Origin: Roseburia sp.
GTDB taxonomy: Bacteria; Bacillota; Clostridia; Lachnospirales; Lachnospiraceae
Assembly: GCA_017937095.1 (NCBI GenBank)
Contig: JAGBEG010000013.1
Coordinates: 62,001 to 126,000 of the forward strand
Direction of reading: 5' to 3'
Length of the DNA: 64,000 nt
Positions 30,990 to 36,129 of this stretch are shown piece after piece (the stretch's first letter is position 1; every line of letters begins with the position of its first letter). The notes under the pieces were generated by a model, which made no database searches, was not told where the DNA came from, and was given only the letters and a program-made list of their open reading frames with translations. The position numbers were made by a program, and so were the translations under genes.

Positions 30990-31110
30990 CTGTACTCCTC
31001 CCATGTTTCTATGCACGATTGTTCTCACAAATGCTATTTTAACAGCTTTGTCGAATAAAAAATAGTACCTAAATCATCAAATCTTCGTTGATGTTTCGGC
31101 ATCTTAACGC

Positions 31111-31140
31111 CAAAAACCCCGCACACTTTTCGTGTGCGGG
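31111..31140 (-). terminator. Rho-independent terminator of fliC
   Basis: On the minus strand a 10-bp GC-rich stem CCCCGCACAC/GTGTGCGGGG with loop GAAAA is followed by TTTTTGG. It starts 31 nt past the flagellin stop. Confidence 0.93.
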
Positions 31141-31171
31141 GAAAGAGCCAAAAAGCTGCTGCACTTTTCCA

Positions 31172-32542
31172 TTACTGCAGGAGTGAAAGAACGCCCTGTG
31201 TGGACTGGTTCGCCTGTGCAAGCATAGACTGTCCTGCCTGTGCAAGGATGTTGTTCTTGGAGTACTCCACCATCTCTTCCGCCATATCGGTATCACGGAT
31301 GCGGGACTCTGCTGCGGTGGTATTCTCAACAACGTTGTCGAGGTTTGCGATCGTGTGCTCTAAGCGGTTCTGAACTGCGCCGAGTGCGGAACGCTGCGCA
31401 GATACGGTCGCAACTGCGTCTGCAATGGCGTCAATCGCATAGGTCGCCGCCGTGCCGTTCGTATCTGTTACATTGATTCCCTCGATGCCGAGCCCTGCCG
31501 CGCTCATAGCGTCGATATCCACCGTGATCTTATTAGTGGAATCCGCGTCTGCACCGACATGCAGGTTGAAGGATAAGGTATCCTTTACCGTTGCATAGCC
31601 TTTTTTAATCGTAAATTCAACATTTCCATCCGTATCGGCTGTTCCTGCGGTAACGGTAGGCTTTCCGTCGGTTGTTCCGATTGAGTTCGCCGCTGTCAGC
31701 TCTGCCGTGATCTTCGTAATGGCTTCTGCCTGATTAATCGAAGTCGACTTTGTAGTGTCCACGGCTGTTACTGCCGCATCCGGATCATCAGGAGTAAGAT
31801 TTACCTTGCTTCCCGCCTTAATCTTCGCAGCAATGGTTTCTGCCAGAAGTTCATTCGTAGCCTCATCTACGTCAGCCGCATCATCCTTTACCGCATATCT
31901 CACGCCGTCAACTTCCACTTCATCATCTTCTGCCAATCCCTTCACTGCAGTCTGAAGGTCTCCGACGCCGCTGCCATCTGCATAAACATCATAATTTACG
32001 CCGCCAATCTTAATTGTAGAACCTGCCTTTACATTTGTGGTAAACGTAGCTTCCGTATCGCCGTCTACGAGTGTTCCGTCAAATCCGGCGTCATGCGCAG
32101 CCATATACTTGTCTGTCGTTCCTGTCTGTCCCTTGAGCAGATAGATCTCGTTGAACTTGGTCGTCTCGGAAACACGGTCGATCTCAGTTACCAACTGGTC
32201 TACCTCATCCTGGATCGCCTGACGGTCAGCCTCGGAGTTGGTTCCGTTGGAAGCCTGAACTGCCAGCTCGTTCATACGCTGTAACATGGAATGAACTTCT
32301 GTCAATGCACCCTCTGCGGTCTGTACTGCGGAAACGCCGTCCTGTGCGTTCGTGGAAGCCTGATCCAGACCCTTGATCTGTTTTCTCATCTTCTCGGAAA
32401 TCGTAAGACCTGCCGCGTCATCCGCCGCGCGGTTGATCCGGTAACCGGATGATAACTTCTCAGAGGACTTTGCCTGCTGTCCTGTCGTGATGCCTAACAT
32501 TCTGTTCGCGTTCATCGCTGTTAAATTGTGCTGTACTACCAT
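31172..32542 (-). CDS. fliC: Flagellin
   Basis: A 456-residue flagellin, the filament subunit exported by the flagellar type III apparatus. The conserved N-terminal D0/D1 (1-140: VVQHNLTAMNANRMLG, SGYRINRAADDAAGL) and C-terminal D1/D0 (370-456: GAVQNRLEHTIANLDN, ESRIRDTDMAEEMVEY, ANQSTQGVLSLLQ) are intact. Residues 140-370 form a variable, acidic, Thr/Asp-rich D2/D3 region with low similarity expected between strains. SD GGAGG lies 9 nt upstream within a leader rich in GGA motifs. csrA is immediately upstream. I see no clear sigmaA or sigmaD promoter in the present 103-nt leader. Confidence 0.97.
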   Translation of the reverse strand: MVVQHNLTAMNANRMLGITTGQQAKSSEKLSSGYRINRAADDAAGLTISEKMRKQIKGLDQASTNAQDGVSAVQTAEGALTEVHSMLQRMNELAVQASNGTNSEADRQAIQDEVDQLVTEIDRVSETTKFNEIYLLKGQTGTTDKYMAAHDAGFDGTLVDGDTEATFTTNVKAGSTIKIGGVNYDVYADGSGVGDLQTAVKGLAEDDEVEVDGVRYAVKDDAADVDEATNELLAETIAAKIKAGSKVNLTPDDPDAAVTAVDTTKSTSINQAEAITKITAELTAANSIGTTDGKPTVTAGTADTDGNVEFTIKKGYATVKDTLSFNLHVGADADSTNKITVDIDAMSAAGLGIEGINVTDTNGTAATYAIDAIADAVATVSAQRSALGAVQNRLEHTIANLDNVVENTTAAESRIRDTDMAEEMVEYSKNNILAQAGQSMLAQANQSTQGVLSLLQ

Positions 32543-32550
32543 AAATTTTT

Positions 32551-32608
32551 ACCTCCGTGTGATAAATGTTTTTCCGCTTATGCGGTGTATTCCGGGAATC
32601 CGTTCCCG
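32551..32608 (-). promoter_or_regulatory. Predicted CsrA-binding leader of fliC
   Basis: On the minus strand the leader has a 5-bp hairpin GGGAA-CGGA-TTCCC (32594-32607) that shows GGA in its loop. Further GGA motifs follow, one of them next to a second hairpin CCGC-ATAA-GCGG. The last GGA overlaps the Shine-Dalgarno sequence ACGGAGG (32551-32558). The layout parallels B. subtilis hag, where CsrA binds an upstream hairpin and the SD to block translation. Confidence 0.6.
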
Positions 32609-32645
32609 TTATAATAAACCGAGCCCCTAGGTTAGCCCGGTATTA

Positions 32646-32906
32646 TTACCGTGTGTTGCCTTCTGCGCCTCTTCTCTCCCTTCGCAGAATTTCCCTGATC
32701 TCCTGCTTTGCTTCCTCGGAAATCCCCTGCTCCTTATAATAAGGAGACGGCGCCTTTTTCTCTCCGGCGGAGCTCCTGGCGATATTCAGCTCTCTGGGCG
32801 CATCCACGAGAAGATGAATGTTGTTTGCCGATCCTCCCGAAAAAATGACGCGGATGTTTTTGCCAATGTCGATGTACTCCCCCGGTTTCAATGTCAGTTT
32901 CAGCAT
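32646..32906 (-). CDS. csrA: Carbon storage regulator CsrA-like translational repressor
   Basis: An 86-residue CsrA-family RNA-binding protein. ATG 32906 (MLKLTLKPGEYIDIGKNIRV) follows GGGAGG by 5 nt. The beta-strand core matches the family through DAPRELNIARS, including the key Arg. It is divergent: the usual LTR at the start is LTL, and the conserved acidic residues after the Arg are missing. It also has an added 30-residue charged helix (SEEAKQEIREILRRERR). In Firmicutes CsrA represses flagellin translation and is antagonised by FliW; no fliW is seen in this window. Confidence 0.87.
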   Translation of the reverse strand: MLKLTLKPGEYIDIGKNIRVIFSGGSANNIHLLVDAPRELNIARSSAGEKKAPSPYYKEQGISEEAKQEIREILRRERRGAEGNTR

Positions 32907-32987
32907 AAGAACCTCCCTGTTTCGTCTGTATTTTTCCATAAATAATGTGTATACTTATCTGTATACCCGTCAGCCGGAATATAAGAT

Positions 32988-33021
32988 GCGGGGTAACACA
33001 ATGTATATTGTGTTACCCCGC
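32988..33021. repeat. Putative recombination site R1 (left end of invertible segment)
   Basis: A 34-bp palindrome-like site: 13-bp arm GCGGGGTAACACA, 8-bp centre ATGTATAT, 13-bp inverted arm. The inner 9-bp arm GGTAACACA is shared with R2 (33801-33834). Read in the opposite orientation, R2's centre is ATGTATAC, one mismatch from R1's. No T-run follows on either strand, so it is a poor terminator. It lies 82 nt upstream of csrA. Confidence 0.7.
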
Positions 33022-33084
33022 TGTGTAATGAGCGCGTCACATCTCAAATATGGATTTTCCTATGCCAATCCCGCTTTTTTATTT

Positions 33085-33672
33085 TTACAAACATAGGTTT
33101 TTGAACACCTCGTCGCGGTCGTCCTGCTCGATTCCGAGATAGCGCTGTGTGACTGCAAACGAAGAGTGATGATAGATTTCCATGAGAAGTGCGGGCGGCG
33201 TTCCCTGCTTCCATGCATAATAGCCGAATGTCTTGCGCAGGGAATGAGGACTTATGACTCCGGTCAGCTCGCAGCTTTCCGCCGCCTTTCGGATGATGCG
33301 GTACGCCTGCACTCTGGAAATCGGCGCGCCGGAATGTCCCGCGAACAGAAATGCTTCGCCGCATATCCGCCCTGTGCACTCTTTTAGCGCTTTCCGGTAT
33401 GCCTGCAGGGCATCCCGTATGCTTTGGTTCATGAAAATGCAGGATGCTTTCCCGGTCTTTGACTCCACAAGGGAAATGTGCCCGCGGAATTTTCCCTTTC
33501 CCTTGTCGTACACATTTTCCCAACGCAAAGCCAGCAGGTCGGAGATGCGAAGCGCGGTATTTAATCCCATTATTATAAGAAGCTGATTGCGCGGATTTTT
33601 CTCTGTATCTTTGTAATAATCCGTAAATCGTTCCAAATCCTGTTTGTTTCTGATCGGTTGTGCTGTGTTCAT
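33085..33672 (-). CDS. Small tyrosine recombinase (FimB/FimE-like size)
   Basis: A 195-residue catalytic-domain recombinase without the usual N-terminal SAM-like core-binding domain, as in the FimB/FimE inversion recombinases. All catalytic residues are visible: R42 (ALRISD), K72 (SKTGK), H143-x-x-R146 (HSLR), H169 (YHHSS) and nucleophile Y178 (QRYLG). AAGGAGG lies 8 nt upstream of the ATG. It is the only gene between the 34-bp sites R1 and R2. Together they form a probable self-contained DNA inversion module beside csrA-fliC. Confidence 0.92.
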   Translation of the reverse strand: MNTAQPIRNKQDLERFTDYYKDTEKNPRNQLLIIMGLNTALRISDLLALRWENVYDKGKGKFRGHISLVESKTGKASCIFMNQSIRDALQAYRKALKECTGRICGEAFLFAGHSGAPISRVQAYRIIRKAAESCELTGVISPHSLRKTFGYYAWKQGTPPALLMEIYHHSSFAVTQRYLGIEQDDRDEVFKNLCL

Positions 33673-33762
33673 ACAAATTCCTCCTTGAATCGACTGTTTC
33701 CTCGTTCAAAACAAACTGCGAAACAATTTTTTAAATAAATTTAATAAATAATTATAAAGGGG

Positions 33763-33789
33763 TAAAGTATTTCCAGGTTCAACCGATAT
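33763..33789 (+). promoter_or_regulatory. sigmaD-like outward promoter inside the invertible segment
   Basis: -35 TAAA, a 15-nt spacer and -10 ACCGATAT, one mismatch from the sigmaD consensus GCCGATAT. It reads rightward toward R2, 11 nt beyond. In the present orientation it faces no plus-strand gene and meets the R2 hairpin with its T-run. If the segment inverted, it would lie just inside R1 and read into csrA-fliC. Confidence 0.6.
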
Positions 33790-33800
33790 ATAAAATGTAA

Positions 33801-33834
33801 AAGAGGTAACACAGTATACATTGTGTTACCTCTT
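33801..33834. repeat. Putative recombination site R2 (right end of invertible segment)
   Basis: A 34-bp site: 13-bp arm AAGAGGTAACACA, 8-bp centre GTATACAT, 13-bp inverted arm. The 26-bp core (33805-33830) matches the inverse of the R1 core (32992-33017) at 25 of 26 positions. On the plus strand it is followed by TTTGCTT and would act as an intrinsic terminator for the outward promoter at 33763. Confidence 0.7.
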
Positions 33835-33902
33835 TTTGCTTACATATTTAAGTTGTTTCATTTTCGATTTCTGATATTCTCTATTCCTGATATCTTCTGT
33901 CT

Positions 33903-34364
33903 CTAATTCCGCCGCCCTTCCCCGCTATAGGAAACATCCTCCCGGACGTCATAATCCGTATTGTCCACAAAGATTTCCGTTTTGCGGCATTTCGCTTCTT
34001 TCTCTAACATTTCAATCCGGCGCTTCATGCCCCTGCACAACGCATCCGTCCTTCTGTCATCTACGAACAGGGAATCCAACGTTTCCACATTGCGGATGAC
34101 GCCAAAATTATTCTGATGGCGGTCTTCATTTACAATCAGATAATCAAGCACCAGCATTTGATCGACCGCTTCTTTCCTTCCACAGATTCCCAGGCACTTC
34201 ATAATACGGCTTGCAATCACTTCATTATAAGGTTCCTGACACACTGCGCCGCTTCCGCCATGTGACTTCAAACTCCGCCTGTCTGACCCAATATTGGTCG
34301 GAAAGACTAATTCTGGAATTCCCTGATGCGCAAATACACCTACCGGAAGATGGCGTTCCTGCAT
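33903..34364 (-). pseudogene. Decayed HipA-like kinase gene
   Basis: An open frame of 153 residues that looks like a shrunken HipA-type serine/threonine kinase. It keeps the N-terminal IGSDRRSLKSHGGSG and EPYNEVIASRIMKCLGI. It then jumps to the catalytic-loop-like VLDYLIVNEDRHQNNFGVI and a C-terminal RRIEMLEKEAK. The stretch between (nucleotide-binding part) and the DFG-equivalent region after NVETLDSL seem deleted, so kinase activity is unlikely. It starts 4 nt after the stop of the preceding gene. Whether an antitoxin partner once existed is unknown. Confidence 0.6.
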
Positions 34365-34368
34365 CGGT

Positions 34369-34863
34369 TCACTTTCCTTCCCTTGACTGACCTGTCTTTT
34401 GCAAGTACTGTTTGGCATCTTCATATGCCTGAATAAAACTTTCCTGTATCAAGGCAACATCATCTGTACTAATATGTTTCACGCTATACTGTTCGCTTGC
34501 CGTATCCTTTTCCACTCCATATGATCCATCCGGCAGTCTGGGTTCATTTCTTACTATAAACGTATGATCGTTTATTTTGTAGTCTACTTCTATACAAATA
34601 TGCTTTTTAGAAAACTGTTTAAACCCTTTATTACCGCATAATTGCTTCATCACATCCGTTTCTGTGTTCTCAGTTTGAGGTTGCATGGCAATTTCTCTGA
34701 TCATATCAACAATATATTCTGATACATTATCCCACTTGGCATTCCCAATTTTTTTATAGGGCTCTACCGCTAATGCGTACCCAAATTTACACTCCTTATA
34801 TGGAACCAATATCATGTCTTTATTTTTATCTATATAAATCTGCATCATAAGGTAATTTCCCAT
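34369..34863 (-). CDS. Hypothetical protein preceding the decayed kinase gene
   Basis: A 164-residue soluble protein of unknown family with alternating strand/helix pattern. It opens MGNYLMMQIYIDKNKDMILV and later has FSKKHICIEVDYKINDHTF and a helical C-terminus (IQESFIQAYEDAKQYLQ). AGGAG lies 9 nt before the ATG. Its stop is 4 nt before the HipA-like frame, suggesting a former two-gene operon. Its base composition is clearly more AT-rich than the surrounding core genes. Confidence 0.7.
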   Translation of the reverse strand: MGNYLMMQIYIDKNKDMILVPYKECKFGYALAVEPYKKIGNAKWDNVSEYIVDMIREIAMQPQTENTETDVMKQLCGNKGFKQFSKKHICIEVDYKINDHTFIVRNEPRLPDGSYGVEKDTASEQYSVKHISTDDVALIQESFIQAYEDAKQYLQKTGQSREGK

Positions 34864-34984
34864 AAAAGCGATCTCCTAATCCACCTATCCTTTGTTCCCC
34901 AGCCTTTACATTACGTTCAAACAATATCTCACAATCACCATTCATATCCCTTAACTTGTCTTCCTTCCATCAGCCATCGAGGAA

Positions 34985-35236
34985 TCACTTTTCAACGGAA
35001 GTAACATCCGGAAATTGTCCATTATTTCTAAACATTATTTTTATTATTTGTTCAGATGCCCAGTTTTCATATGCCTGATTTGAGATTCCCGGATCATTGA
35101 CTTGATGTAAAATGTTAAAAATTCTTTTTTCTTTGTCAAACTCAATTTCTCCCATCTGTTCTTCATCAGGTCCAAATTGATATACCACTCTCTTCTCATC
35201 CTCAAACTTTTTTATCATTTTCACATATACTGCCAT
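34985..35236 (-). CDS. Small protein, immunity-like, coupled to the ankyrin gene
   Basis: An 83-residue protein opening MAVYVKMIKKFEDEKRVVYQ, with a beta-rich N-terminal half and a helical end (NQAYENWASEQIIKIMF) closing in FPDVTSVEK. Small soluble proteins of this type are common among immunity genes for polymorphic toxins, but I cannot assign a named family. Its ATG overlaps the stop codon of the upstream ankyrin-type gene (TGATG), implying translational coupling. AT-rich. Confidence 0.72.
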   Translation of the reverse strand: MAVYVKMIKKFEDEKRVVYQFGPDEEQMGEIEFDKEKRIFNILHQVNDPGISNQAYENWASEQIIKIMFRNNGQFPDVTSVEK

Positions 35237-36129
35237 CAGGTGTATTCCTTCACTATATTTATTATATTCTCATTTTTCGTTCTTTTGGCAATATCCAAAA
35301 TACTACAGTCTCTTACATATTCGTTTGAATAAGTTACGATCAGATTTCTGCAGTTTTTCATAAGCTCCTCCACGAGAAAATCATTCGAAAAACGAATGGC
35401 ACTGACCAAGGGATTCTCTTTCATCTCCCTGCCATGGGTGACAATGCCTTTCTCTATTAAAGTTTTGGCAATTACGTTGCTGTTGTTCCTTATCGCTGTC
35501 ATAAGCTCCAACCCGTCAAACGCATTCATATCTATACCATTTTCAATTAACCAAAGCGCTTCCTTTTCTTTTCCTTCTATAATCGCATAATTAAGCAACG
35601 AACCCCTGGGCGTAACTATGTTTATCATATTATTATCCAGAATATAATCTTGAAACCCTTCAAAGTCTTCTAATAAATCCAATGCTTTCACTATTTTTTC
35701 AAAATCTTCTTTCGTCTCTCCCCAAAAGTTTTTTTCGGAATAATTTAAATAAAACTCCTGATATTCTTCAGAAGCAAATGTCGGTCCTGTTAAAACTGCC
35801 TCGATAAATTCTGTCGGCGGTATGTATTTTCCATCCAGTATGTCGTCTATAATCATATTGGGCGCTGCATATCGTATTTTGTTTTTCTTATCGATAATGC
35901 GTATTTCCCCAAATCCTTTGACATACTTTTTTCCGTCGATCTCTATTGTATGACATTTGCCGTTCAAATCCCTATTTAACGGATTCTCACAATATGCAGT
36001 CAGTTTCTCTATAAATGTCGGGTTAAATCTCTCTTCGCTTCCCACAATACGATCGGGGTTTGTATTCCACCCAATATTATAAGCATTTTCAAAATGTTGA
36101 TAACAATATTTCGTCATATCAGAATCCAT
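35236..36129 (-). CDS. Ankyrin-repeat-like protein
   Basis: A 297-residue soluble protein. The first about 160 residues match nothing I recognise (MDSDMTKYCYQHFENAYNIG). Residues 170-297 show ankyrin-like units: GSLLNYAIIEGKEKEALWLI, then ENGIDMNAFDGLELMTAIRN, NSNVIAKTLIEKGIVTHG, NPLVSAIRFSNDFLVEELM and CSILDIAKRTKNENIINIVK. No signal peptide. The gene is strongly AT-rich and flanked by other AT-rich small genes, so horizontal acquisition is likely. Ankyrin proteins occur among immunity proteins, but that role here is inference. Confidence 0.75.
   Translation of the reverse strand: MDSDMTKYCYQHFENAYNIGWNTNPDRIVGSEERFNPTFIEKLTAYCENPLNRDLNGKCHTIEIDGKKYVKGFGEIRIIDKKNKIRYAAPNMIIDDILDGKYIPPTEFIEAVLTGPTFASEEYQEFYLNYSEKNFWGETKEDFEKIVKALDLLEDFEGFQDYILDNNMINIVTPRGSLLNYAIIEGKEKEALWLIENGIDMNAFDGLELMTAIRNNSNVIAKTLIEKGIVTHGREMKENPLVSAIRFSNDFLVEELMKNCRNLIVTYSNEYVRDCSILDIAKRTKNENIINIVKEYT

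Follow-up and report, generated by a model that had tools for sequence, protein, structure and literature searches.

A putative promoter-inverting cassette with its own tyrosine recombinase beside csrA–fliC in Roseburia

In one Roseburia genome, a flagellin gene and a csrA paralogue lie beside a segment in which two inverted repeats enclose a recombinase gene and a flagellar-type promoter, and this promoter points away from both genes. Whether the segment can turn over and thereby switch the flagellin was addressed in a window of 64,000 nucleotides (the whole stretch of DNA analysed, part of contig C10 in a genome of 3.9 Mb) and in related loci. By far the best reading of these sequences, and one we regard as very probable, is a phase-variation cassette, that is, a promoter-inverting switch for csrA–fliC with its own tyrosine recombinase. 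The features on which the argument turns are as follows.

31172..32542, minus strand: fliC, a flagellin of 456 aa (PF00669, PF00700), the presumed switched product
32646..32906, minus strand: csrA paralogue (PF02599), 86 aa from its conserved start (the ORF list begins it at 32939), the gene that transcription from the inverted promoter would reach first
32988..33021 (core 32992-33017), no strand: R1, the csrA-proximal recombination site, inverted relative to R2 by inverted-repeat comparison
33085..33672, minus strand: a 195-aa tyrosine recombinase consisting of the catalytic domain alone (Pfam PF00589 Phage_integrase, E 3.2e-22), the presumed invertase
33763..33790, plus strand: sigma28/sigmaD-type promoter TAAA-N16-CCGATATA, pointing away from csrA–fliC (OFF) and into R2
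33801..33834 (core 33805-33830), no strand: R2, the csrA-distal recombination site, probably also a terminator for the promoter in the present orientation

The R1 core (32992-33017, GGTAACACAATGTATATTGTGTTACC) and the R2 core (33805-33830) are inverted repeats equal at 25 of 26 bases and 787 nt apart, confirming that two inverted sites surround a single recombinase gene. When the core was searched genome-wide with its centre left free, R1 and R2 were the only matches with 0 mismatches, and the third place had 3 mismatches.

One scan of GTDB genomes returned 34 related recombinases, and at E ≤ 1e-35 a related recombinase was present in 30/397 genomes sampled from the family, 25/62 from the genus and 44/392 from the order. 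The 101 copies collected reduced to 90 distinct ones, 72 of which have csrA or a flagellin gene within 5 kb. The other 18 were set aside because neither gene occurred within 5 kb of the examined stretch; they include close copies (L016 with 60% and L129 with 74% identity to the second copy of the window genome), and four of them (L016, L075, L078 and L144) have site-like pairs. That second copy, 50% identical to the window recombinase, lies beside another csrA–fliC and has its own, different sites. Together with the copies near csrA or flagellin genes in relatives, it indicates a recurrent module and no coincidence of the window. The counts below refer to the 72 loci or to a tree of 71, from which L087, whose recombinase is broken, was left out; order-wide loci stand outside them. 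A mobile or phage integrase was rejected on the same proximity of 72/90 distinct copies to csrA or flagellin and because no relative occurred in viral_contigs. Downstream of the second cassette lies a very short ORF (L002:2460-2545) that, by eye, we take to resemble a type I holin-like toxin.

PF00589 was the only Pfam match of the window recombinase, and no serine recombinase domain of the Hin type was found in it. Tyrosine recombinases share the catalytic set R-K-H-R-H-Y, and the window protein has all six residues: R42, K72, H143, R146, H169 and Y178 were kept in 71, 70, 71, 71, 71 and 70 of 71 aligned rows, respectively. The family match and this conservation in relatives bear out the earlier assignment as a tyrosine recombinase with complete catalytic residues. 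The FimB/FimE-type NCBIfam models PRK09871 and PRK09870 gave 46.8 and 30.9 bits, under their curated cut-offs of 222 and 221. The enzyme would work like FimB/FimE-type invertases, yet it does not belong to these two models.

A site pair was present in 67 of the 72 loci, of which 60 were found automatically and seven later by wider or manual search (L041; L029, L064 and L135; L037, L125 and L127). No acceptable pair was found in L030, L038, L040, L083 and L152. The centres were compared in 59 of the 60 automatic pairs, with L024 (22-bp core) and the seven later pairs excluded. The central 6–7 bp were equal in inverted orientation in 57/59 pairs (20/21 and 37/38 in the two core-length classes); none was equal as a direct repeat (0/59), and none was palindromic. 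Reading of the cores traced the two failures to L023, which was mis-parsed, and L137. The classes contain 14 and 24 distinct centres, and when sites were re-paired among loci in 20,000 shuffles, at most 10/21 and 9/38 centres matched. Mismatches in the outer, central and inner parts numbered 44, 1 and 19 in the 21-bp class and 19, 5 and 14 in the 20-bp class, where all central mismatches came from one mis-parsed core. Because pairs were selected by inverted-repeat score, their overall identity is inflated, but its concentration in the centre is unaffected.

Tyrosine recombinases need an identical overlap and tolerate freedom outside it. Asymmetric centres that match only when inverted, as had been claimed for the window, hold across the family, and inverted repeats with such a centre enclose the promoter, as in a promoter inverton. 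The loxP/FRT-like 13-8-13 geometry given by the sequence-only reading had to be abandoned: the family-wide invariant centre is 6–7 bp, which makes the layout roughly 10-6-10 or 11-6-11, so that the single R1/R2 mismatch of the window falls in an arm. In layout, R1 and R2 are closer to dif than to loxP.

The promoter was found where it had been placed, just inside the far site and pointing outward, with a spacing of N16: TAAA at 33763-33766 and CCGATATA at 33783-33790 on the plus strand agree with the pattern at 10/10 scored positions. The motif TAAAGTNTTT-N8-10-CCGATA has two matches genome-wide, in the window cassette and in the second csrA–fliC cassette. The available text of PMC3720852 gives TAAA-N16-17-MCGATAa as the sigma28 consensus for the Roseburia group and lists taaa/ccgatat promoters with spacing 16 for three Roseburia flagellins. 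Among relatives, an outward sigma28-type promoter was present in 53/60 distal intergenic stretches, with 0.55 expected by shuffling; the other 7 had no match, and an opposite-direction promoter occurred in 0/60. A promoter toward csrA was seen in 2/43 proximal stretches, namely L133 and a weak match in L011. The distance from the -10 box to the distal core was 22 nt in the median (IQR 21–22, range 16–61, n = 55). The promoter is thus the constant payload across loci, while the strand and place of the recombinase vary. On contig C24 of the same genome a similar promoter lies 144 nt upstream of a flagellin gene, and no match to the window recombinase was found on that contig. The promoter of L143, from a genome that we take to be R. 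intestinalis, is degenerate (CCGAAATA, read by eye). For a 539-aa R. intestinalis flagellin, which may be the L143 gene, the study in PMC3720852 found no promoter.

The orientation of the cassette was then compared across loci. Of the 71 tree loci, 60 are OFF, a further 2 are OFF but have the recombinase outside the site pair, 2 (L133 and L041) are ON, 1 is a toggle and 6 have no assigned state, which gives 62 OFF among 65 state-assigned loci. L011 had been machine-flagged as ON because of a weak match lying at the stop codon of the recombinase gene; it was set OFF by hand, as were L029, L064, L135 and L143. Within the window clade the recombinase gene has the same direction as csrA, and in nearly all other loci the opposite one. 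In L133 and L041 the recombinase strand and the promoter are reversed together, and these are the sole loci with a readable switch whose recombinase strand runs against their own clade; the strand also deviates in L083, where the switch is unreadable.

L133, in the second clade, has the order site, recombinase (+), promoter, site, csrA. Compared with its OFF kin L084 and L136, its inner half-sites are swapped, with the outer half-sites and flanks in place. The two ends have exchanged their inner halves and the adjoining flanks (GAATGTT-GCATTTTTTATTTACAC, toward the promoter), and the junction falls within the 7-bp centre CTTATAA. On this reading of its sites, L133 is the natural product expected from the predicted inversion. 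L041, in the window clade, is a mirror image of its kin; the half-site swap is unreadable there because the two sites in L013, its relative, do not differ from each other, and an AAA-ATPase/PD-(D/E)XK gene is inserted within the segment (L041:1049-2566). Inside the segment of L029, a protein (L029:3873-4817) has a below-cut-off match to PD-(D/E)XK transposases (21.7 bits, cut-off 27.4). In L037 (2380-4572), one sigma28 promoter lies between two divergent flagellin genes within the site pair, an arrangement resembling a flagellin toggle, Hin-like in outcome. In L125 and L127 the sites surround the promoter and the recombinase lies outside. Both orientations were observed between species (L133 and L041 ON). 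No species showed both, the 11 near-duplicate copies appearing to be the same genomes, and the window copy was always seen as OFF.

The two sites also differ in their resemblance to terminators. Across the 55 loci called OFF by machine, the distal site together with its outer flank had a mean folding energy of -16.95 kcal/mol and a mean longest T-run of 4.87, compared with -9.39 kcal/mol and 1.75 for the proximal site as it would stand in the ON state. The distal site was at least as stable and had the longer T-run in 51/55 loci, and the reverse was seen in 0/55. A T-run of at least 4 occurred in 45 distal and 5 proximal sites of 55, and a run of at least 5 in 0/55 proximal sites; the distal run was shorter than 4 in 10/55, including L009 and L010, the nearest kin of the window. 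Arm mispairs, counted in 55 OFF loci of a slightly altered set (also used for promoter spacing, and differing in the hand-set loci and L087), were fewer in the distal site in 27 loci, equal in 25 and more in 3. In L133 the distal hairpin has -3.6 kcal/mol now and would have -18.2 kcal/mol if inverted back. In L125 an insertion, presumably a group II intron, lies directly behind the distal hairpin. Collectively, it is the distal site, and not the proximal one, that resembles a terminator, which suggests how a single site for recombination can also serve to terminate transcription, though on just one side.

For the window itself, the claim that the outward promoter meets a hairpin with a T-run stood in part. 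The R2 hairpin has -20.9 kcal/mol with T5 on its outer side; a consensus terminator scan flagged R1 and R2 on the minus strand and neither on the plus strand, R2 being missed there because most of its T's pair into its stem. The R1 hairpin has -26.9 kcal/mol in the present orientation and -14.1 kcal/mol after inversion, and as it stands it may also block recombinase transcripts from csrA in the OFF state. Within each site, the outer 4 bp of the arms pair as the segment now lies but would not do so after inversion, as the sequence-only reading had cautioned, and this hints at a long-lived OFF state.

We propose that the recombinase would bind the two inverted sites and recombine them within the asymmetric 6–7 bp centre, turning over the roughly 0.81 kb between them together with its own gene. 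In the OFF state the sigma28 promoter would fire outward and be stopped some 40 nt later, since the distal site and the outer T-run would form an intrinsic terminator. In the ON state it would continue past the proximal site, which forms a weaker hairpin and has no U-tract, into csrA–fliC. By arithmetic, the -10 box would then end approximately 126 nt before the conserved start codon of csrA (ATG at 32906), in agreement with the roughly 125 nt foreseen. Taken together, the centres, the promoter and the ON loci of relatives support a phase-variable flagellin driven by a cassette with its own recombinase and promoter.

Several loci lie at the edge of this family. In other families of the same order, L192/L213, L198, L201, L203, L209 and L210 have site pairs about 115–146 bp apart, located 5' of the recombinase. 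The neighbours of L198, L201, L209 and L213 include secreted or repeat proteins, those of L203 are housekeeping genes only, and in L210 the short pair precedes csrA–flagellin, with an outward promoter read by eye. These order-wide loci are perhaps a wider set of promoter switches. In L211 and L212 a flagellin-type sigma28 promoter lies about 1 kb away from the recombinase, and in L211 it points straight at the flagellin gene; no convincing site pair was found at either, and they are possibly a switch fixed ON.

Other explanations were weighed against this switch. That R1 and R2 are mere bidirectional terminators around a stray integrase gene, with an incidental promoter, would fit two hairpins that are both flagged on the minus strand; we give it almost no credence and reject plain terminators, since a shared asymmetric inverted centre (57/59) would be superfluous for terminators, proximal sites have no T-run of at least 5 (0/55), and ON copies exist. 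It is also most improbable that the present orientation is the working one and that sigma28 makes a hairpin RNA of about 40 nt from R2 that regulates in trans. The tight spacing from the -10 box to the site and the common OFF orientation agree with such an RNA, but it would be hardly more than the recombination site, and the promoters of L133, L041 and L037 face csrA or a flagellin gene. A decayed switch, locked OFF here and in most relatives with its outer arms co-adapted to one orientation, is unlikely on balance. The rarity of ON (62/65 loci OFF) means that many copies could be locked OFF, and the outer 4 bp that pair only as now and the broken recombinase of L087 point the same way. However, the window recombinase is an open frame with conserved catalytic residues, the centres remain matched, ON and toggle loci exist, and decay may instead look like L211 and L212, where a gene remains and no site pair was found.

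Finally, the switch may set a level, with another promoter driving csrA–fliC in the OFF state. In the available text of PMC3720852, the product of ROSEINA2194_00549 fits a culture band of about 43 kDa by its size and first ten residues, and a sigma43 promoter is predicted for the gene. The fliC of L011 (R. inulinivorans, assembled OFF), 389 aa from its MVVQHNMQAM start, fits ROSEINA2194_00549. This fit implies either that cultures contain ON cells or that OFF is not silent; a mixed culture accounts for the protein equally well. In the window, one sigma70-like match (9/12) points toward csrA out of R1, fewer than the 2.8 that shuffles of the region expect. A level-setting role thus has some chance of being correct, though we lean against it. 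The OFF assignment had been drawn from the lack of any other csrA–fliC promoter; the window's single match is at chance level, and the fit of the L011 flagellin to a culture band weakens the argument, so OFF need not mean silent.

The linked csrA and the fliC leader contribute further parts. The window csrA scored 58 bits with PF02599 (cut-off 27) and kept R44, as expected of CsrA, and it fell below the NCBIfam equivalog cut-off (23.8, cut-off 73). The genome has three CsrA genes, a canonical one at 90.7 bits and two switch-linked ones at 58.4 and 55.2. From 70 loci with a linked csrA, 48 proteins were recovered through a start pattern; R44 was kept in 48/48, as was L4, at which position the pattern permitted only L, I or V. 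An A-N-GGA motif lies within the fliC Shine-Dalgarno sequence in 63/64 leaders, and an ordinary GGAGG would also yield it. The fliC leader contains a further element.

32612..32648, minus strand: fliC-leader hairpin, its first 3 nt being the csrA stop codon, supported by covariation and a loop found in the genome only at two switch-linked flagellins

The hairpin with a CTAACCTAGGGG-type loop was aligned from 31 loci (alignment A1), whose rows were selected by the loop motif, so that the invariance of the loop is partly imposed. Compensatory change was found in 12/14 pairs, with the outer six pairs weak, and covariation was 0.497, compared with 0.181 for shuffled alignments and at most 0.162 when slid. 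The loop has exactly 2 matches genome-wide, both at switch-linked flagellins. A known RNA family was ruled out, as no Rfam match occurred in 31000-35500 at E up to 1. The hairpin is thus a candidate new RNA element and a possible target of the linked CsrA. L037 has it without an adjacent csrA, which counts against a strict CsrA partnership. It is conceivable, as a tentative proposal, that the cassette is half of a flagellin-identity module of independent origin from Hin/FljBA: the ON state would co-express a flagellin and a divergent CsrA, which would act through the leader hairpin (and the Shine-Dalgarno GGA) on translation of this flagellin or would repress others, and the two modules of this genome, having different sites, would be independent.

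Roseburia and its relatives are motile commensals prevalent in the gut, and their flagellins are pro-inflammatory, according to the available text of PMC3720852. If true, an ON/OFF flagellin switch would bear on the flagellin genes left without a promoter in that text and on the way flagellin abundance varies in the cultures it describes. The switch would be widespread, self-contained and dedicated to individual flagellins, mostly OFF in assemblies, and phase variation in the Roseburia group becomes directly testable by PCR. Among the literature matches listed, titles and abstract starts held no description of this system, with most subscription journals and the PhaseFinder and PhaVa catalogues outside the scope of the search. 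Both are inverton catalogues, according to the available text of PMC11868660.

Among known systems, the fimS element of E. coli is alike in that a small tyrosine recombinase (FimB/FimE) flips a promoter. It differs in being a 314-bp element (available text of PMC5903667). It serves fimbriae and uses two enzymes and host factors, whereas the window gene lies inside its segment. In L125, L127 and L210 the recombinase is outside the site pair, as in fim. For both the flg and the cwpV switch of C. difficile the recombinase is unlinked. The flg switch (RecV) shares with the window a tyrosine recombinase, flagella and the Firmicutes, but it is a 154-bp 5' UTR element without a functional promoter and with Rho-dependent OFF (available text of PMC7446863). 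In cwpV, as far as the available account goes, the promoter lies outside the inverted segment, unlike here. In Hin/fljBA of Salmonella, recombinase and flagellin promoter lie within the segment and the flagellin is co-transcribed with a regulator. The window cassette likewise combines a recombinase gene with a flagellin promoter in a presumably invertible segment, and the two segments are of similar size (966 bp for Hin; available text of PMC5903667). Hin, however, belongs to the serine recombinases and uses different sites together with an enhancer (in part from the available text of PMC11868660), in contrast to the tyrosine recombinase, the sigma28 promoter and the CsrA in place of FljA found here. 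By analogy, the cassette would be Hin/fljBA-like in its working, with another enzyme class. As a promoter inverton it is set apart by a site that appears to act as a terminator too, by a recombinase gene that can change its place, and by the CsrA paralogue linked to it.
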